From Nonomuraea deserti (GTDB lineage Bacteria; Actinomycetota; Actinomycetes; Streptosporangiales; Streptosporangiaceae), in NCBI RefSeq assembly GCF_004348685.1, contig NZ_SMKO01000010.1, positions 1 to 64,000 of the forward strand: 64,000 nt of DNA, in the 5' to 3' direction. Shown here piece by piece: positions 52,789-61,295 of this stretch. The position numbers were made by a program, and so were the translations under genes. Position 1 is the first letter of the stretch, and each line of letters starts with the position of its first letter. Under the pieces are notes generated by a model. The model searched no databases. It saw only the letters and a program-made list of their open reading frames with translations, and was not told the DNA's origin.

Positions 52789-53262
52789 ATGGTCGCCGTG
52801 GCTGACGACAACGACCCCCGCGACGAGCCCGTGCCCGCCGGCGCCCCGCAGCCAGAAGGCGCCCCGTCGCCGCCGGGGAACGACCCGCGTGACGAGCCCG
52901 CGCCCTTCGGAGCCGTCGTCCTGCTGACGGCCGGCTCCGCGGTGGCGGTCATGGTGATCTCCGCGCTCATGTCGGACCCGCCGGGAATGAGGTTCCACCT
53001 CGGCGGACCGATCGCCCTCGTGGTTTTCGAGGTGGTCACGAACGAGGTGTGGTGGCAGCGCTGGTGGGGCGCGATCCCGGGCGCGATCGGCGGCCTGGCC
53101 TGCTATTTCGAGGGCCGGGCCGCGCTGGCCGACCTCGTCGGCGACACCTGGGGCCACCCGATCGCGTACGTCGCCGCCTGGACGTTGTTCGCCGTCGTCT
53201 TCGCCCTGTGCAGCCGCTATCCCCGCACCGTCAGCCGTTGGCGGGGATCCACCCCAACGTGA
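52789..53262 (+). CDS. Membrane protein with disordered N-terminus, function unknown
   Basis: 157 residues. The first 40 are Pro/Asp/Glu-rich and hold two NDPRDEP repeats, predicted disordered. They are followed by three membrane helices (FGAVVLLTAGSAVAVMVISA, GPIALVVFEVVTNEVWW and IAYVAAWTLFAVVFALCSR). ATG 52789 or GTG 52798 starts it; neither has a Shine-Dalgarno. The 3' end overlaps the convergent uppP gene by 32 bases. Confidence 0.65.
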   Translation: MVAVADDNDPRDEPVPAGAPQPEGAPSPPGNDPRDEPAPFGAVVLLTAGSAVAVMVISALMSDPPGMRFHLGGPIALVVFEVVTNEVWWQRWWGAIPGAIGGLACYFEGRAALADLVGDTWGHPIAYVAAWTLFAVVFALCSRYPRTVSRWRGSTPT

Positions 53263-54061
53263 CCGCCAGGATGACGAAGAACCCCAGGATGATCCGGTAG
53301 ATCACGAACGGGGTGAAGCGGTGGGTGCTGATGTATCTCAGGAACCAGGCCACGGCCAGATAGCCGACGGCGAACGAGATGATCGTGGCCAGGATGGTGG
53401 GCCCCCACGCGGGTGCCGGGCCCTCGCCGATCTCCCGCAGCTCGAACACGCCCGAGGCCAGGACGGCGGGGATCGCCAGCAGGAACGAGTATTTCGCGGC
53501 GTCCTCGCGGCGGTAGTCGAGCAGCAGTCCCGCGGTGACCGTGCCGCCCGAGCGGGACACGCCGGGGATCAGGGCGAGCGCCTGGGCGCAGCCGTAGACG
53601 AGGGCGTGGGGGAGGCTCAGGTGCTTCTCCAGCGTGAGCTTGTTGCGGGCGGTGCGGTCGGCGAGCCACAGGATGCAGGCGAAGACGATCAGCGTGGTGC
53701 CGACCAGCCGCAGGTCGCGGAAGCCGGTCTCGATCTGGTCTTTCAGCAGCACGCCGAGGATGCCGATGGGCAGCGAGCCGGCGATGATGTACCACCCCAT
53801 ACGGGCCGCCCAGTGGCCGCGCAACTCCTTGACGAACAGGGAGCGCGTCCAGGTGGAGATGATCTCCCAGATCTCCTTACGGAAATAGATCAGCACGGCC
53901 GTCTCCGTGCCGAGCTGGATGACCGCGGTGAACGCAGCGCCGGGATCCTGCCAGCCGGCGAAAGCGGAGACCACACGGATGTGGGCGCTGGAGGAGATCG
54001 GCAGGAACTCCGTGAGCCCCTGGATCAGCCCCAGCACCACCGCTTCTAGCCAGCCGATCAC
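53231..54061 (-). CDS. uppP: Undecaprenyl-diphosphatase
   Basis: 276 residues, about eight membrane helices. The two BacA/UppP signatures are present: LIQGLTEFLPISSSAHIRVV and ALALIPGVSRSGGTVTAGLL. It dephosphorylates undecaprenyl diphosphate on the outer face of the membrane, recycling the lipid carrier for peptidoglycan; it can confer bacitracin tolerance. It stands alone on the minus strand, 39 bp downstream of the RpiR gene. Confidence 0.95.
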   Translation of the reverse strand: MIGWLEAVVLGLIQGLTEFLPISSSAHIRVVSAFAGWQDPGAAFTAVIQLGTETAVLIYFRKEIWEIISTWTRSLFVKELRGHWAARMGWYIIAGSLPIGILGVLLKDQIETGFRDLRLVGTTLIVFACILWLADRTARNKLTLEKHLSLPHALVYGCAQALALIPGVSRSGGTVTAGLLLDYRREDAAKYSFLLAIPAVLASGVFELREIGEGPAPAWGPTILATIISFAVGYLAVAWFLRYISTHRFTPFVIYRIILGFFVILAVTLGWIPANG

Positions 54062-54100: not shown

Positions 54101-54982
54101 TTAGCGGAAACGGGGGCCGAGCAGTTGCTCGCGTAGCGCGCTCAGCTGGTGGGAGTGCTCGACCGAGCGGGTCTGGTCGAGGGAGTCGAGCGCCAGCAGC
54201 AGCGCGTCGGCCACGATGATGCCGGTCAGGGGCTCGCCGGTGATGCCGGTGGGCGTGTGCGGCGCCGCGAGTGCCGCGTCCACGCGGTCGGCGAACTCGC
54301 CTCCGAGCTCGTCGGAGATCAGCACGATGCCCGCGCCCACCGCGTGGGCCCGGTCGATGAGCACCGTGATCTCCTTCAGCCGGCGGCCCGGCTGGAAGAT
54401 GACGAGCACGTCGCCGTGGCCCAGCGCGAGCAGGTCGTCGGCCAGCGCGAAGCCGGTCGCCGAGGTGGCGCGGGCGCGGTGGCCGCGGCGGCCCAGCTTG
54501 AGCGCCAGGTGGCGGGCGGCGGGGTCGGAGGCGCCGGTGCCGAAGACGAGCACGCCCGGCGCGTTGACCAGCAGCTCGACCGCCTTCTTGAACGCCTCGG
54601 CGTCGAACAGGCGCCGGCAGTGGTCGATGCGCTCGCGGGCCTCGTCGAAGACCCGCTCCCAGATGCCCGACAGGTCCTGCCCGACGTGGCTGATGCGCTG
54701 CTTGAGGCGTACGTCGGGGGCCACCGCCGAGGTGAACTCGGCCGCCAGCACGCGTTTCAGCCCGGGCAGCCCGCCGAAGCCGAGCCGCTGCATCGTGCGC
54801 ACGACGGTGGCGTTGCTCGTGCCGGTCGCGGCACCCAGCTCCTGGGCGCTGGCGAACAGGATCTGCTCGGGCGGGGCGGACACGAGGAACTGGCACACCG
54901 CCCGCTCGGCCGGCGACAGCTCGTCCCACAACTGCCTGACCTTGGCTCTGAGCTGCTCGACCGGACCGTGTGTATTTTCCAT
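54101..54982 (-). CDS. RpiR-family (MurR-type) transcriptional regulator
   Basis: 293 residues. The N-terminal HTH_6 domain reads ELSPAERAVCQFLVSAPPEQ with ASAQELGAATGTSNATVVRT and MQRLGFGGLPGLKRVL. The C-terminal SIS sugar-phosphate-binding domain reads GVLVFGTGASDPAARHLALK and GDVLVIFQPGRRLKEITVLI. RpiR regulators usually sense phosphosugars, often wall-derived ones. ATG 55012 is also in frame but lies inside one of three 15-bp sites, so 54982 is preferred. It probably controls the divergent C45 hydrolase and ABC importer operon. Confidence 0.88.
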   Translation of the reverse strand: MENTHGPVEQLRAKVRQLWDELSPAERAVCQFLVSAPPEQILFASAQELGAATGTSNATVVRTMQRLGFGGLPGLKRVLAAEFTSAVAPDVRLKQRISHVGQDLSGIWERVFDEARERIDHCRRLFDAEAFKKAVELLVNAPGVLVFGTGASDPAARHLALKLGRRGHRARATSATGFALADDLLALGHGDVLVIFQPGRRLKEITVLIDRAHAVGAGIVLISDELGGEFADRVDAALAAPHTPTGITGEPLTGIIVADALLLALDSLDQTRSVEHSHQLSALREQLLGPRFR

Positions 54983-55000
54983 TACGGCTATTGACTCCTC

Positions 55001-55069
55001 TGTAGCGATCATTACTCTGTCTTGGAAACGACCGCTACAGACTCGCCGCCTCCTGAAATGAACGTTACA
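55001..55069. promoter_or_regulatory. Three copies of the probable RpiR site
   Basis: The consensus TGTARCG-x-TC-R-TT-x-C occurs three times: TGTAGCGATCATTAC (plus, 55001-55015), TGTAGCGGTCGTTTC (minus, 55039-55025) and TGTAACGTTCATTTC (minus, 55069-55055). The first two face each other and the last two are direct repeats 30 bp apart. Confidence 0.68.
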
Positions 55070-55093
55070 GGCCGGTCGGTCCAAGGAGCACCA

Positions 55094-56227
55094 TTGAGCC
55101 TCACTTCCCTGCCCCTCGTCGAGATCTCCGGCGCTCCGCGCGAGCGGGGACGCCAGTACGGCGAGCAGGCCCGTGATCGCGTCCAGCGTGCGATGACCTA
55201 CTACGCCGAGGCGTTCGGGCACTCCAGCGGACTGACATGGGAGCAGGTCGTGCAGCGCGCGGCCCGCTGGGTGGAGCCGAGCAGGGCGTTCGCGCCGGAC
55301 CTGGTCGAGGAGATGGAGGGCATCGCCGAGGGCGCGGGGGTCGACTTCCTCGACGTCCTGGCGCTCAACGCGCGCGGCGAGATCATCTACGACACCACGT
55401 TCAGTTCCATGGAGCCCGACGGCTGCACGTCGTTCGCGCTGATGGGCGAGGCCGCGGGCGACGGCCACGTCTACGCGGGCCAGAACTGGGACTGGCGCGA
55501 CGGGGTGTCCGGCACGCTGATGGTGCTCAGGGTGGTCCAGCCGGGCAAGCCGACGGTGATCATGCACGTGGAGGCGGGGCAGGTCGGGCGGCAGGGGGCC
55601 AACTCGGCGGGCATCGCGCTCAACGCCAACGGGCTCGGGGGGCGCTTCGACGACTCGGTGGGCGTGCCGCAGACGCTGATCAGGCGCAGGGTGCTCGACA
55701 GCGACAACCTCAACGCCGCGCTGGAGGCGCTGACCAAGCCGCGGGCCCACATCGCGAGCAACGCGCTCGTCACCCATCGCGAGGGCTTCGCGATCGACCT
55801 GGAAACCACCCCGGGAGCGGTCGGCTGGATGTACCCGACCGACGGGCTGCTCGTCCACGGCAACCACTACCAGGCGTTCGTGCCGCCGCAACTGGCCGCC
55901 TCCTACCGGCCGGGCTCGGCCGACTCGCTGTTCCGGGTGCCGAGAGCCGAAGGCGGGCTGCGGGCCGTGGCCGAGGCGTCCGGCACCGACGAGGCACGCA
56001 AGCGCATCAGGCTCGCCATGTCCGACCACCTCGGCTACCCCGAATCCCTCTGCACCCACCCCGACCCCGCCCAGCCCGCCGTGAGACGGTGGGCGACCCT
56101 GCTGTCGAGCTGTGTCGACCTCACCACCGGCGACTACCTGATCGCGGCGGGCACGCCCTGCGACCACGAGTACGAGCGCGTGCCCTGGAACCTCTACGAC
56201 GGACCGCATGGAGAAGTGACCCCGTGA
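55094..56227 (+). CDS. C45-family hydrolase (isopenicillin N acyltransferase-like)
   Basis: 377 residues, Ntn-hydrolase fold. The nucleophile expected after autoprocessing is C111 (MEPDGCTSFALMG), followed by YAGQNWDWRDG. This is the C45 pattern shared by acyl-CoA:6-APA acyltransferase and related amidases. Here it would hydrolyse or transfer an amide-linked acyl group. TTG 55094 has AAGGAG at a spacing of five. It overlaps the substrate-binding lipoprotein gene (GTGA), placing it first in a seven-kilobase operon. Confidence 0.87.
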   Translation: MSLTSLPLVEISGAPRERGRQYGEQARDRVQRAMTYYAEAFGHSSGLTWEQVVQRAARWVEPSRAFAPDLVEEMEGIAEGAGVDFLDVLALNARGEIIYDTTFSSMEPDGCTSFALMGEAAGDGHVYAGQNWDWRDGVSGTLMVLRVVQPGKPTVIMHVEAGQVGRQGANSAGIALNANGLGGRFDDSVGVPQTLIRRRVLDSDNLNAALEALTKPRAHIASNALVTHREGFAIDLETTPGAVGWMYPTDGLLVHGNHYQAFVPPQLAASYRPGSADSLFRVPRAEGGLRAVAEASGTDEARKRIRLAMSDHLGYPESLCTHPDPAQPAVRRWATLLSSCVDLTTGDYLIAAGTPCDHEYERVPWNLYDGPHGEVTP

Positions 56228-57831
56228 AGAAGACGCTCGCCCTCCTAGGGCTCATCGGTCTCACCGCGGCCTGCGGCGGCCCCGCCGCGACCACCAAGCC
56301 ACCCGACCCGGCCAAGCTCACCCTGGTCGACCGCACGGCCAAGGCGGCAGGCCCGCTCGACTCCGCCGTCTGGCTGATCGACGAGGAGCCGGGCACCCTC
56401 GACCTCGACACCGACGGCGGCACCAACAACCGCACGATCATGGCGAACGTCTGCGAGCGCCTCATGCAGACCCAGCCCGACATGACGGTCAAACCCTGGC
56501 TGGCGGAGAAGGCCGAGCGGCCCGACCCCAAGACCATGGTGCTCACGCTGCGCCGGGACGCCACGTTCCACGACGGCTCGCCGGTCACCGCCGACGACGT
56601 CGTGTGGAGCCTCAAGCGGCACGCCGGCGAGGGCATGGACGAGTCCGACGAGTTCGAGGACGTCGACTCCGTCAGCAAGACCGGCGACCACGAGGTCACG
56701 ATCGCGTTCAAGAAGCCCAACTCGCTGTTCGACCAGGCCATCGCGGGCGGCGCCGGCATCGTGCTGAACAAGGAGGCCGTCGAGAAGCAGGGCGAGGAGT
56801 TCGGCACGCCGGGCCACGAGGACGCCTGCAGCGGGCCGTACGAGGTGGCGGAGTGGAAGTCGGGCAGCCACCTCACGATCACCCGCCACGACGCGTACTG
56901 GAACAAGGACGTCAAGCCGCTCACCAAGAGCATCACCTTCAAGTGGGCCGAGGACACGGCGCTGGTCAACAGCCTGGTCACCGGCGAGGCGCAGGGGGCC
57001 TACCTGTCCGACACGGGGCCCGCGGTCGCGCTGCAGGCCAACCAGGCGGTCACCGTCTCCTACGGCGCCACCACGCGGGTGTACGTGTTGTTGCCCACCG
57101 ACCGCGGCGTGATGAAGGACCCGAAGATCCGCCGGGCGATGTCGCTGGCGATCGACCGCGCGGGCATCGCCAAGTCGGGCTTCGCCGGGCTGGCCAGGCC
57201 GTGGAAGGTGCCGGTCGGGGCCGGAGCCTGGTCGTACGAGAAGGAGGCGTTCCAGGCGGCCTACGACCAGTTGCAGGGGGCGCCGGACAAGCCGCGGCTC
57301 GACGAGGCCAAGAAGCTCGTGCAGGAGGCGGGCTCGCCCAAGGAGCCGATCATCGTGGCCACCAACGGCGAGCAGTCCCGCACGGTCATCGCCAACGCGG
57401 TGGTCGACGCGGCGAAGAAGATCGGGCTCACCGCGCAGATCAAGACCGTGCCCGCGTCCGAGTTCGGCAGCTTCTACACCGACGAGTCGCTGCGCGCCCA
57501 GGTCGATCTGGTGCCCGACGACTGGTACATCACCAAGTCCGACCCGATCGGCTTCTACGACAACGGGCTGACCGGCTCGGCGAACAACTGGGTCAAGTTC
57601 AGCTCCCCCGAGTACGACGAGCTCGTGGCCGCGGCGCTGGAGACCACCGACGACGCGGCCCGCGCCAAGGACGTCATCGAGCTGCAGCGCCGCTTCACCG
57701 CCGACATGGTGTGGATCTCGCTGGTCGAGGTGCCCAACGCGGTCGTGCTCGGCGGCAAGGTCACCGGGCCGCCCGCCTCGCAGGTGCACATGAGCTACCC
57801 GTGGGCGGCCGACCTCGGGGCCAAGGGCTGA
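56224..57831 (+). CDS. ABC importer substrate-binding lipoprotein (family 5, Dpp/Opp type)
   Basis: 535 residues. The lipobox is GLTAAC with lipidated C17, followed by a Pro/Thr-rich linker. SBP family 5 features are GTLDLDTDGG, LTLRRDATFHDGSPVTADDV, FSSPEYDELVAAALE and a late DDWYITKSDPIGFYD. It captures peptides or similar solutes outside the membrane for the two permeases. GTG overlaps the stop of the C45 gene. Confidence 0.93.
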   Translation: MKKTLALLGLIGLTAACGGPAATTKPPDPAKLTLVDRTAKAAGPLDSAVWLIDEEPGTLDLDTDGGTNNRTIMANVCERLMQTQPDMTVKPWLAEKAERPDPKTMVLTLRRDATFHDGSPVTADDVVWSLKRHAGEGMDESDEFEDVDSVSKTGDHEVTIAFKKPNSLFDQAIAGGAGIVLNKEAVEKQGEEFGTPGHEDACSGPYEVAEWKSGSHLTITRHDAYWNKDVKPLTKSITFKWAEDTALVNSLVTGEAQGAYLSDTGPAVALQANQAVTVSYGATTRVYVLLPTDRGVMKDPKIRRAMSLAIDRAGIAKSGFAGLARPWKVPVGAGAWSYEKEAFQAAYDQLQGAPDKPRLDEAKKLVQEAGSPKEPIIVATNGEQSRTVIANAVVDAAKKIGLTAQIKTVPASEFGSFYTDESLRAQVDLVPDDWYITKSDPIGFYDNGLTGSANNWVKFSSPEYDELVAAALETTDDAARAKDVIELQRRFTADMVWISLVEVPNAVVLGGKVTGPPASQVHMSYPWAADLGAKG

Positions 57832-57834
57832 GCC

Positions 57835-58752
57835 GTGGCGGTCCGCAAGCTGGCCGGGCTGGTCGCCACGCTGCTCGCCACCTCTTTCGTGATCTTCGGG
57901 GCGTCGTACGCGGCGCCCGGTGACCCGGTCACGTTCCTGGCGGGCGGCAAGGAGAACCTGACACCCGAATACCTGGCCGCCATCCGCGCTCAGTACCACC
58001 TGGACGACCCGTTCCTGGTGCAGTACGCGCGGTGGCTGGGCGACGCCGTGACAGGCGACCTCGGGCGCTCGATGCAGTACAACGACCAGGTCTTCGACCT
58101 GATGCTGGCCCGGCTGCCGAGCACGCTCGGGCTGGTGGCGTACGCGTCGGTGTTGTTCGTGGTGTTCGGCGTCGCCCTCGGGGTGCTGGCGGCGGTCCGC
58201 GGCGGCCGCGCCGACTCCGCCGTCGTCGCCGGCACCACGCTGGCCACCTCGGTGCCGTCGTTCGTCACCGCCGCCGTGCTGATCTCGCTGTTCGGCGTGC
58301 AGCTCGGCTGGTTCCCCGTCATGGGCGGCGGGTCGCTGTGGCACCTGACGCTGCCCGCCGTGACGCTCGCGCTGGGCGCGCTGGCCATCATCAGCCGGGT
58401 GACCAGGCAGGCCATGGTCGAGCAGCGCGAGCTCGACCACGTGACCGTGGCCCGCGCGTCGGGGCTGGCCGAGCGGCTGATCGTCACCAGGCACGTCCTG
58501 CGCGGCGCGCTCGGCCCGATCGTGACCATGTGCGGGCTGGTCACCGCCGGCATGCTGGCGGGCACCGTGGTCGTCGAGACCGCGTTCAGCCTCAACGGGA
58601 TCGGCTCGCTCCTGGTCAAGGCGATCAACACGCACGACTTCCCCGTGACCCAGGCGGTGATGTTGTTCATGGTCGCCGCGTACATCGTGGTGACCACGCT
58701 CGTCGAGCTGCTGCAGCCGCTCATCGACCCCAGGGTGAGGAGGCGGGCATGA
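57835..58752 (+). CDS. ABC importer permease (DppB-like)
   Basis: 305 residues, six membrane spans. The cytoplasmic coupling (EAA) region is VEQRELDHVTVARASGLAER and LIVTRHVLRGALGP. The N-terminus YAAPGDPVTFLAGGKENLTP and FLVQYARWLGDAVTGDLGRS is typical of DppB/OppB. It pairs with the next permease in the channel. The GTG is three bases after the lipoprotein stop. Confidence 0.93.
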   Translation: MAVRKLAGLVATLLATSFVIFGASYAAPGDPVTFLAGGKENLTPEYLAAIRAQYHLDDPFLVQYARWLGDAVTGDLGRSMQYNDQVFDLMLARLPSTLGLVAYASVLFVVFGVALGVLAAVRGGRADSAVVAGTTLATSVPSFVTAAVLISLFGVQLGWFPVMGGGSLWHLTLPAVTLALGALAIISRVTRQAMVEQRELDHVTVARASGLAERLIVTRHVLRGALGPIVTMCGLVTAGMLAGTVVVETAFSLNGIGSLLVKAINTHDFPVTQAVMLFMVAAYIVVTTLVELLQPLIDPRVRRRA

Positions 58753-59591
58753 CGACCGTCGTCTCCACGCTCTCGCCCGGGCCCGCGCGACCCCTCGGCT
58801 ACTGGCTGGCCGGCGCCTTCCTCGGGCTGGTCGTCGCGGCGGCCCTGCTGGCGCCGGTGGTGGCGCCGTACGAGCCCGACGCGGTCGACTTCGCCGCCAC
58901 GCTCGCGCCGATGTCGCCCGGACACCCGCTGGGCGCCGACCAGTCGGGCCGCGACCTGCTCAGCAGGGTCATGTACGGCGCCCGCACCTCGCTCATCGGC
59001 CCGCTGCTGCTGCTCGCCATCGCCTCGGTCCTCGGCGTCGCGCTCGGCACGCTGGCCGCCTGGCACCGCGGCTGGGTCGACACCGTCGTGGCCAGGCTGA
59101 CCGACGTCATGTACGCCTTCCCCGGGCTGCTGTTCGTCGTGCTGATCGTGGCCGTGTTCGGCAACGGGATGACCACGGCCGTCATCGCGCTCGGCCTGGC
59201 CTACACGCCGACGATCGCCCGCTACACCAGGAGCGTCGCGCTGGGCGAATGCGCCAAGCCGTACATCGACGCCTACCGGGTGCAGGGCATGGGCGGCTTC
59301 ACGATCTGCGTGCGGCACCTGGTGCCCAACATGGCGCGCTCTATCGTCGGCTACCTGGTCGTGCTGTTCGGGGAGGGACTGATGAGCCTGGCCACGCTGA
59401 GCTTCCTCGGGTTCGGGGCGCAGCCGCCGTCCTCCGACTGGGGGCTGATGGTCAAGGAGGGGCAGCCGGCGATCGTGCAGGGGGCGTTCCTGCCGGTGCT
59501 GGTGCCGGGCGCGGCCATCGCGCTCGTGGTCGTGTCGTTCAACGTGATCGGCGTGCGCCTGGCCGACCGCATGGGCGTGAGGGGGGCGTGA
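58749..59591 (+). CDS. ABC importer permease (DppC-like)
   Basis: 280 residues. HPLGADQSGRDLLSRVMYGA near the N-terminus is the DppC/OppC signature, and the EAA region is ECAKPYIDAYRVQGMGGFTI and CVRHLVPNMARSIVGYLVV. SFLGFGAQPPSSDWGLMVKE is also diagnostic. The ATG overlaps the stop of the first permease (ATGA). Confidence 0.94.
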   Translation: MTTVVSTLSPGPARPLGYWLAGAFLGLVVAAALLAPVVAPYEPDAVDFAATLAPMSPGHPLGADQSGRDLLSRVMYGARTSLIGPLLLLAIASVLGVALGTLAAWHRGWVDTVVARLTDVMYAFPGLLFVVLIVAVFGNGMTTAVIALGLAYTPTIARYTRSVALGECAKPYIDAYRVQGMGGFTICVRHLVPNMARSIVGYLVVLFGEGLMSLATLSFLGFGAQPPSSDWGLMVKEGQPAIVQGAFLPVLVPGAAIALVVVSFNVIGVRLADRMGVRGA

Positions 59592-60532
59592 TGGTGCTTT
59601 CCGTCGAAGGGCTGACGATCGAGGCGGGCGGACGGCGGCCGATCCTCGGCGACGTCTCGCTCACCGTCGGCCGGGGCGAGATCGTGGGCCTGGTCGGCGA
59701 GTCCGGCTCCGGCAAGTCCACTCTCGCCCGCTCGGTGCTGCGCCTGCTGCCCCGGCACTCGACGGTGTCGGGGCGGGTGCTGGTCGCGGGCGACGACGTG
59801 CTCACGATGGAGCCAGGCGCGCTGCGCGACCTGCGCGCCACGCAGGTGTCGATGATCTACCAGGATCCGCGCTCGTCGCTCAACCCGGTCCGCAGGATCG
59901 GCGACTTCCTCACCGAGCGCATGGTGTTCACGCTGGGCCGGCCCAAGGCGGAGGCCCGCGCGCGGGCGCTGGAGCTGCTGGCCGCGGTCGGCCTGCGCGA
60001 GCCCGAACGGCACATGCGGCAGTACCCGCACGAGCTGTCGGGCGGCATGTTGCAGCGCGTGGTCATCGCCGCCGCGCTGGCCGCCGACCCGGCGCTGCTC
60101 CTGGCCGACGAGGCGACCAGCGCGCTCGACGTCACCACCCAGGCCGAGACGCTCGCGCTGCTGCGCCGGGTGCAGGCCGAGAGGGAGCTCGGCATGTTGT
60201 TCATCACCCACGACCTGCACCTGGCCGCCGCCTTCTGCGACCGGGTGCACGTGCTGTACGCGGGCACGCTGGTCGAGTCGCGGCCGGCCAAGGAACTGTT
60301 CGAGGACCCGCGCCACCCGTACACCGCGGGGCTGCTGGCCTGCACGCCCGAGCTCGACGACCCCCGCCCGATCCGCCCGATCCCCGGCCGGCCGCCCTCG
60401 CTGGACGACGCGTTCACCGGCTGCCCCTTCGCGCCCCGGTGCCCGCACGCCACCGGCGCCTGCGAGGAGTGGCGGCCGCGGCCCGTGACCGTGCCCGGCG
60501 GCTCGGCCGCCTGCCGGCTGGTGGAGGTCTGA
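59591..60532 (+). CDS. ABC importer ATPase (DppD-like)
   Basis: 313 residues. Walker A is VGESGSGKSTLARSVL, signature LSGGMLQRVVIAAAL, Walker B LLLADEATSALDVT, and the H-loop is MLFITHDLHLAAAFCDR. The C-terminal oligopeptide-type region has the Fe-S-like cysteines CPFAPRCPHATGACEEWRP. It energises uptake together with the next ATPase. ATG overlaps the previous stop by one base. Confidence 0.94.
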   Translation: MVLSVEGLTIEAGGRRPILGDVSLTVGRGEIVGLVGESGSGKSTLARSVLRLLPRHSTVSGRVLVAGDDVLTMEPGALRDLRATQVSMIYQDPRSSLNPVRRIGDFLTERMVFTLGRPKAEARARALELLAAVGLREPERHMRQYPHELSGGMLQRVVIAAALAADPALLLADEATSALDVTTQAETLALLRRVQAERELGMLFITHDLHLAAAFCDRVHVLYAGTLVESRPAKELFEDPRHPYTAGLLACTPELDDPRPIRPIPGRPPSLDDAFTGCPFAPRCPHATGACEEWRPRPVTVPGGSAACRLVEV

Positions 60533-60533
60533 C

Positions 60534-61295
60534 ATGCTCGCCGTACACGCCCTGTGCAAGTCGTTCGACGGCGCGGTGGCCGCCGCCGACGTCTCCTTCG
60601 AGCTGGCCGCGGGCGGCTCGCTCGGCCTGGTGGGGGAGTCGGGTTCGGGCAAGACCACGATCGCCCGCATGCTCGTCGGCCTGGTCACCCCCGACTCGGG
60701 CACGATCACCGTGGCCGGCAGGGCCCGCACCGTCAGGGAGCGCGGCAGGGCCGCCAGGCTGCGCAGGGCCCGCGAGATCCAGATGGTGTTCCAGGACCCG
60801 TACGTCTCGCTCGATCCCAGGCTCACCGCGGCCGAGTGCCTGCGCACCGCGCTCAGGCTGCACGGCAAGGAGCTCTCACGCGCCGGCGAGCTGCTCGACC
60901 AGGTCGGGCTGGGCGCCCGCGAGGCCGGGGCGCGGCCCCACCAGCTCAGCGGCGGCCAGCGCCAGCGCCTGGCCATCGCCAGAGCCCTGGCGGTCGAGCC
61001 GTCGGTGCTGGTACTGGACGAGGCGGTGGCCGCGCTGGACGTGTCGATCCAGGCGCAGATCCTCGAGCTCCTCGCCCGGGTGCGCCGCGACTCGGGCGTC
61101 GCCCTGCTGTTCGTCAGCCACGACCTGGCCGTGGTGCGCCACCTCTGCGACGACACGCTCGTCCTGCACCGGGGGGTGGTGGTCGAGCGGGGGCCGGTCG
61201 CGCGGGTGCTGGCCGAGCCCGAGCACCCCTACACCAGGCTGCTGCTCGACTCGGTGCCCCGGCCCGGCTGGGACCCGGCCAAGGCAACCCGCTGA
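60534..61295 (+). CDS. ABC importer ATPase (DppF-like)
   Basis: 253 residues. Walker A is VGESGSGKTTIARMLV, signature LSGGQRQRLAIARAL, Walker B VLVLDEAVAALDVSIQ (EAVAALD instead of EATSALD), and the H-loop is LLFVSHDLAVVRHLCDD. It is shorter than usual because the C-terminal cysteine region is missing. It starts one base after the stop of the other ATPase. Last gene of the importer operon. Confidence 0.93.
   Translation: MLAVHALCKSFDGAVAAADVSFELAAGGSLGLVGESGSGKTTIARMLVGLVTPDSGTITVAGRARTVRERGRAARLRRAREIQMVFQDPYVSLDPRLTAAECLRTALRLHGKELSRAGELLDQVGLGAREAGARPHQLSGGQRQRLAIARALAVEPSVLVLDEAVAALDVSIQAQILELLARVRRDSGVALLFVSHDLAVVRHLCDDTLVLHRGVVVERGPVARVLAEPEHPYTRLLLDSVPRPGWDPAKATR

Follow-up and report, generated by a model that had tools for sequence, protein, structure and literature searches.

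The first 64,000 nucleotides of the 118,990-base contig NZ_SMKO01000010.1 of Nonomuraea deserti (RefSeq assembly GCF_004348685.1), referred to here as the window, contain a set of seven genes in which rpiR, coding for an RpiR-family regulator (54101–54982, minus strand), is divergent from an operon for a C45-family N-terminal nucleophile (Ntn) hydrolase and a five-part Opp/Dpp-type ATP-binding cassette (ABC) importer (55094–61295, plus strand). The evidence supports the set as a real, conserved import and amide-hydrolase unit, with an adjacent regulator and operators. Our preferred explanation, which is tentative, is that the regulator represses the import and intracellular hydrolysis of an N-acylated amine or omega-amino amide. 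A first-pass annotation, made from the sequence letters alone, had described the divergent regulator and the tightly overlapped operon, and domain models find every part where it had been placed. Its suggestion that a phosphosugar is sensed and that the substrate carries a sugar or wall fragment is not supported, as described below.

A scan of 84,980 species, with one genome per species, gave 183 relatives, the best 80 of which were examined (partly the same genomes as in our other surveys). This search for the gene set, which the first-pass annotation had proposed, found the seven genes complete and in order at 72 of the best 80 loci; of the other eight, five run into a contig end, two (in the L051 and L055 genomes described below) retain only C45 and one is missing rpiR. 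Complete sets are found in Nonomuraea, Streptomyces, Embleya, Kitasatospora, Wenjunlia, Lentzea, Nocardiopsis, Saccharopolyspora and Paenarthrobacter, while the Amycolatopsis locus L170 is without rpiR and has an IclR-type gene downstream. The Streptomyces with the set include S. griseus (L151) and S. albus (L129). In a class-wide search of 394 genomes, C45 is matched at 1e-30 in 17, and the set is complete in three (G296, G342 and G266) besides the window's own. C45 genes of the cassette type also occur on large Streptomyces and Embleya records of a plasmid collection, with the gene order read in Streptomyces only. When the flanking open reading frames (ORFs) of 64 loci outside Nonomuraea were clustered, leaving out those below 120 amino acids, no family was present in more than 14 loci, the commonest being MqnA-like (by eye, 14 of 64).

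Judged by C45, the nearest named relatives are Nonomuraea. Within the genus, some C45 match is present in 50 of 54 genomes, and 20 neighbourhoods were taken: 17 contain C45 with the full importer, two C45 alone (L051 in G027 and L055 in G044) and one just a remnant (L058). At the more distant locus L057, an RpiR protein adjoins C45 and the importer. A C45 gene separate from the set in relatives, named by the first-pass annotation as a sign against its reading, thus does occur, in two of 20 Nonomuraea neighbourhoods, but such cases are few and apparently result from deletion, for in both the intact C45 gene, having lost rpiR, the operators and the importer, lies beside what by eye is a scar of the rpiR 3' end. 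In Nonomuraea dietziae (L056, G034) the C45 frame is split into two overlapping pieces, with the rest of the operon present.

Three exact 15-bp sites, TGTARCGNTCRTTNC, fill the intergenic region between rpiR and C45, just as first described (TGTARCG-x-TC-R-TT-x-C). The 15-mer is one face of a conserved 14-bp inverted repeat, GTARY-N4-RYTAC, and a weaker fourth site probably lies 30 bp before copy 1, where a site is also present in a number of relatives. The four candidates lie at 54972, 55002, 55025 and 55055, giving spacings of 30, 23 and 30 bp; copies 2 and 3 are separated by 16 bp and together span 44 bp. Conservation was counted at the 75 of the 80 loci where rpiR was found adjoining C45. 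With at least nine of the ten half-site positions matched, the 14 Nonomuraea loci have 3.0 sites per locus versus 0.02 in shuffles, and the 61 loci of other genera a mean of 2.34 versus 0.025; at eight of ten positions, adjacent spacings in the latter peak at 30 bp (42) and 50 bp (31). All three sites, allowing two mismatches, are kept in the 16 of 16 Nonomuraea neighbourhoods whose adjacent rpiR is 79–97% identical. No operator is found at the two Nonomuraea loci that lost rpiR and the importer, and no site with up to two mismatches at the more distant L057. A genome-wide search for the 15-bp site, also proposed at first pass, found four exact copies in 10.7 Mb, three of them here, and with up to one mismatch 21 matches versus 44 for a reversed control pattern. 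There being no excess, the cluster of sites is local, and a regulon-wide operator was rejected.

The probable C45 promoter, TTGACT-N16-TACTCT, is suggested by conservation: TTGAC is present in 74 of the 75 loci, and the full pattern occurs once in the window and in none of 100 shuffles. From the position of the operators and the precedent of other RpiR proteins, repression appears the likeliest mode of control; some members of the family act as activators instead.

The C45 gene probably starts at TTG 55094, eleven bases after the beginning of an AAGGAG sequence, and both are kept in most aligned relatives. The listed ORF start at 55022, with which the coding sequence would take in operator copies 2 and 3, was set aside, since most aligned relatives keep 55094 instead. 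The rpiR gene starts at ATG 54982, reading leftward; domain scans took the two genes as 54101–54985 and 55022–56227. Within the plus-strand operon, genes overlap by GTGA, ATGA and GTGA or are separated by gaps of 1–3 bases. All features are collected below.

Table. Genes, candidate operators and probable promoter of the seven-gene set, in window coordinates.
Feature	Position	Strand	Basis or remark
rpiR, RpiR-family regulator (HTH_6 + SIS), loop FQPGR instead of SxSGxT	54101..54982	-	domain models, alignment, predicted fold
C45 Ntn-hydrolase, 377 aa, TTG start, Cys111 in DGCTS	55094..56227	+	family models, alignment, fold
Family 5 substrate-binding lipoprotein, SBP_bac_5, LTAAC lipobox (by eye)	56224..57831	+	
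Importer permease B, BPD_transp_1	57835..58752	+	
Importer permease C, BPD_transp_1	58749..59591	+	
Importer ATPase D, ABC_tran + oligo_HPY	59588..60532	+	
Importer ATPase F, ABC_tran + oligo_HPY	60534..61295	+	
Probable fourth, weaker operator GTATTTTCCATTAC	54972..54985	.	overlaps rpiR start codon
Probable C45 promoter TTGACT-N16-TACTCT	54991..55018	+	conservation
Operator copy 1 TGTAGCGATCATTAC	55001..55015	+	in promoter spacer, covering first bases of -10
Operator copy 2 TGTAGCGGTCGTTTC	55025..55039	-	
Operator copy 3 TGTAACGTTCATTTC	55055..55069	-	

Directly 3' of rpiR and on the same strand lies uppP (undecaprenyl-diphosphatase, 53231–54061), which was seen next to the set only in Nonomuraea, as was an AraC gene.

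The regulator matches the HTH_6 model with 35.2 bits (cut-off 28.3) and the SIS model with 32.9 bits (cut-off 25), and its phosphate loop, placed by alignment to MurR, reads FQPGRR where MurR has SYSGSK. In the 76 cassette RpiR proteins (that of the window and those of 75 loci), the aligned loop column is P[GA]R in all 76 and SxSGxT in none; SxSGx[TS] occurs anywhere in the sequence in 10 of the 76, and the three matches inspected fall outside the loop. The more distant RpiR of L057 has FQTGR at this place. Eight other RpiR genes are present in the genome: four contain SxSGx[TS], two differ from it by a single residue, one (L191) is without it and one (L194) was not recovered. In SpNanR, the effector phosphate is held by Ser135, Ser179, Leu180, Ser181 and Thr184, effector binding is abolished in the S179A/S181A/T184A triple mutant, and the loop is termed highly conserved across RpiR structures (PMC12713135). 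The replacement of the loop in all 76 orthologues makes sensing of a phosphosugar by the cassette RpiR unlikely, without affecting its identity as an RpiR-fold repressor. Another RpiR gene of the genome, with the near-canonical loop SHTGAT, is divergent from a gene for a family 5 binding protein (G000:C449:997-2614; L193, L216).

The C45 protein scores 233.4 bits with NF040521 (cut-off 85) and 45.7 bits with PF03417 (cut-off 23.2), and no signal peptide was seen by eye. Alignment and the predicted fold reveal both the cysteine nucleophile at the cleavage site and the Ntn fold; the alignment omitted a second C45 of genome G166, which is without the cysteine. The nearest solved fold is isopenicillin-N acyltransferase, followed by acid ceramidase, NAAA and cephalosporin acylases, as ranked among Foldseek's own matches, which exclude no other family. 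A member of this family would be expected to cleave itself and to hydrolyse an amide or transfer an acyl group. ABC-type genes separate the two C45 genes of the G166 locus (L082, G166:C199, 8839–14225), which are 49% and 42% identical; in the second, DRGSS replaces the cysteine motif and the product is probably a pseudoenzyme, while the permease ahead of the first resembles the polar-amino-acid type by eye.

The importer is a complete member of Opp/Dpp family 5, with one SBP_bac_5 protein, two BPD_transp_1 permeases and two ABC_tran ATPases with oligo_HPY. Among solved proteins, both sequence and profile comparisons place AapF nearest to the lipoprotein, though at a distance, with DppE second by profile. 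We take AapF to be the binding protein of the PipR-linked HEHEAA importer. In OppA, Asp419 presumably pairs with the alpha-amine of the peptide, and DppE and AapF, as read from alignments, also have Asp there. This column was compared in 77 proteins of 450–620 amino acids, that of the window included: the residue is Ser in 60, Thr in 17 and Asp in none. Ser or Thr at the alpha-amine position would fit a ligand without a free alpha-amine, though it is no proof of one, and the missing Asp would make only an importer of free peptides less probable.

Genes of amine oxidation are linked to the exact cassette at four of the 80 loci, in three arrangements. In Amycolatopsis suaedae, an aminobutyraldehyde dehydrogenase gene is coupled to C45, with a class III aminotransferase gene downstream; in Lentzea, genes for both enzymes lie upstream of rpiR; and in two Nocardiopsis, genes for a flavin amine oxidase and an aminobutyraldehyde dehydrogenase are located downstream (L176 by tblastn only). 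Six of the 80 loci lie outside Nonomuraea and the Streptomyces group, and these are four of them. The window's own cassette has no pair of aminobutyraldehyde dehydrogenase with aminotransferase or amine oxidase next to it, and a search of its genome at E up to 1e-100 finds just two dehydrogenases of this kind.

Further amine points come partly from C45 paralogues about 35% identical, again post hoc and without a random control. In the same genome, which contains 34 SBP_bac_5 matches, three of four C45 genes adjoin an Opp importer; the fourth (C181) is on an 11.6-kb contig where Pfam named only C45 among four ORFs tested. One paralogous locus (L098, G000:C470, 5700–18900, one strand) encodes a copper amine oxidase, an Opp importer, an S58 peptidase, a flavin mononucleotide-binding protein, C45, an aldehyde dehydrogenase that scores below every family cut-off and a coenzyme A-transferase, and looks like a whole amide-to-acid pathway. 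Another (L097, G000:C366, 6900–16550, one strand), with a beta-lactamase-family protein, an Opp importer, C45, an amidase and an alpha/beta hydrolase, is close to the alphaproteobacterial GntR-C45-Opp type discussed below. Elsewhere, L083 combines a methylmalonate-semialdehyde dehydrogenase, a class III aminotransferase and C45; the C45 contexts of R. etli and Tistrella contain AptA-type omega-aminotransferases above cut-off; R. etli IE4803 is annotated with a beta-alanine-pyruvate transaminase, and a polyamine importer is present in S. cadmiisoli. Of 78 matching plasmid records, 22 were read for their annotation and gene layout: 15 have an Opp-type importer, seven encode a class III aminotransferase no more than about 8 kb away and one has an RpiR gene, which is the cassette itself. 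This sample is not random, being limited to annotated records with some near-duplicates (two from R. etli). A polysaccharide-deacetylase-family gene lies near C45 at L088, L089, L094, L095, L096 and L205, that is, at five of the 14 actinobacterial loci L083–L096 and in S. cadmiisoli with its polyamine importer; no Opp binding protein or permease was matched at these loci.

The mechanism we propose would run as follows. RpiR, probably as tetramers, would repress the C45 promoter by binding over it to pairs of the 14-bp repeats spaced about 30 bp, until released by an inducer that is probably no sugar phosphate. The lipoprotein and importer would take up a small amide without a free alpha-amine, and the cytoplasmic C45 enzyme, having cleaved itself before Cys111, would hydrolyse it. 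The likeliest class of substrate would be N-acylated amines or amides of omega-amino compounds, such as acyl-putrescine, and the freed amine would pass through an aminotransferase or amine oxidase to aminobutyraldehyde dehydrogenase, enzymes that in most genomes would be encoded elsewhere. A more far-reaching version, which we regard as rather doubtful, is that the cassette is dedicated to scavenging N-acylated omega-amines (acyl-polyamines, plant phenolamides), that the RpiR pocket has switched to sensing an amine or amide, and that the core of C45 and importer is found again in different phyla, where its regulator (RpiR, GntR or IclR) and its importer (Opp, polar amino-acid or polyamine type) can be exchanged.

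Several observations weigh against this explanation. The amine link concerns only four of 80 loci, was noticed after the fact and has no random-locus control, and the Streptomyces and Nonomuraea loci contain no amine genes, except for a partial match at L111 and a distant aldehyde dehydrogenase at L162. The alpha-amine argument depends on the role that we recall for OppA Asp419; among the other binding proteins of the genome (30 of its 34 matches were aligned, one being that of the window), only seven of 29 have Asp at this position, in a poorly aligned stretch. The C45 enzyme could be a transferase rather than a hydrolase, and the second C45 of G166 does without the nucleophile. In the two Nonomuraea without the importer, C45 is apparently under purifying selection, with pairwise ratios of nonsynonymous to synonymous substitution rates of 0.21–0.30, so the enzyme may have another role. 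Finally, a strict consensus scan did not call the promoter.

Among the alternatives, a general system for scavenging peptides or amino acids that carry an N-acyl or formyl cap, with the same mechanism but releasing an amino acid, is unlikely but deserves the most attention. It would suit the family 5 binding protein and the dipeptide-type permeases and ATPases, the dipeptide-binding DppE being the second-best solved relative by profile, and Ser or Thr at the alpha-amine position in 77 of 77 proteins is what a blocked N-terminus would permit; M20 peptidases and amidases adjoin some C45 paralogues. However, no amino-acid catabolic gene was seen to recur beside the cassette, and the catabolic genes at four of 80 loci are amine genes. 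The substrates first suggested, N-acyl muropeptides or acylated amino sugars with a phosphosugar sensed by RpiR, are very improbable: the phosphate loop is absent in 76 of 76 proteins, although SxSGx[TS] is intact in four of the genome's eight other RpiR proteins and altered at a single residue in two more, and mutation of three residues of this loop stops SpNanR from binding its effector (PMC12713135). Furthermore, uppP turned up as a neighbour in one genus only, no murein or sugar gene emerged as conserved nearby, and the catabolic neighbours that were found belong to amine oxidation, if only at the four loci.

It is improbable that a beta-lactam or another acylated antibiotic is taken up and inactivated or used by an acylase-like C45: the fold matches, headed by isopenicillin-N acyltransferase and including cephalosporin acylases, and the beta-lactamase-family protein and amidase of the paralogous operon L097 would be in line with it, but the cassette contains no beta-lactamase and none came up as a conserved neighbour. 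Equally improbable, in our estimate, is uptake of the amide as a signal rather than as food, in the manner of the PipR-linked importer. AapF is the best solved relative of the lipoprotein, and, according to a review (PMC10134790), the PipR system depends on an ABC transporter to import HEHEAA, which is derived from ethanolamine; AapF is distant, however, and the review adds that a close homologue does not bind HEHEAA. The C45 hydrolase in the operon suits breakdown, and no signalling gene emerged as conserved. Least probable of all is a C45 acyltransferase making a product from an imported precursor, as the family name and the isopenicillin-N acyltransferase fold might suggest, because no biosynthetic neighbour emerged as conserved and several paralogue contexts look catabolic.

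The set resembles known systems in part. The window C45 is 25% identical to the acyl-coenzyme A:isopenicillin-N acyltransferase of Penicillium, also of family C45 (PDB entries 2x1c/d/e), but it is bacterial and belongs to an import operon, and a penicillin substrate is not indicated. Drosophila Tan is a C45 N-beta-alanyldopamine hydrolase that cuts the amide of an omega-amino acid, in an animal and without an importer. The regulator is like MurR and NanR in its helix-turn-helix and SIS fold, its divergent position and its paired inverted-repeat operators, and unlike them in that the phosphosugar loop is lost in all 76 orthologues. In the GntR-C45-Opp operons of Rhizobiaceae and relatives, known from annotation only and with no paper found on them, C45 (about 32–40% identical) is likewise accompanied by a family 5-sized binding protein, permeases and an ATPase, but the regulator is mostly GntR instead of RpiR, the ATPase is, judged by gene size, a single one of double length, and an alpha/beta hydrolase, amidase or omega-aminotransferase is often added. 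In the aphA1 region of Klebsiella michiganensis, C45, glnQ, glnP, glnH and rpiR are located on chromosomes, with rpiR named for another strain than that of the C45 map and with an importer of the polar amino-acid type, unlike the Opp/Dpp type of the cassette (PMC12670165). The first-pass annotation knew of no described pathway with exactly this set, and none was found in open-licence full texts, where the Klebsiella map of C45, glnQ and glnP comes nearest; most subscription papers lie outside this search, which makes the absence weak evidence. In the searchable papers, no C45 enzyme was found that is linked to an operon for import or has a natural substrate in bacteria assigned to it; two papers on diazo-compound biosynthesis mention C45.

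The operon is real and conserved, and apparently undescribed. It would be a catabolic one of a familiar kind, in which a local repressor controls an importer and a hydrolase, although the regulator itself is unusual. Many soil bacteria have C45 enzymes, and a seven-gene unit as conserved as this one offers a tractable route to a natural substrate of the family, the class of which, as the neighbouring genes of a few relatives hint, can be tested. The cassette RpiR, for its part, is a naturally occurring member of its family whose ligand is probably something other than a sugar phosphate.

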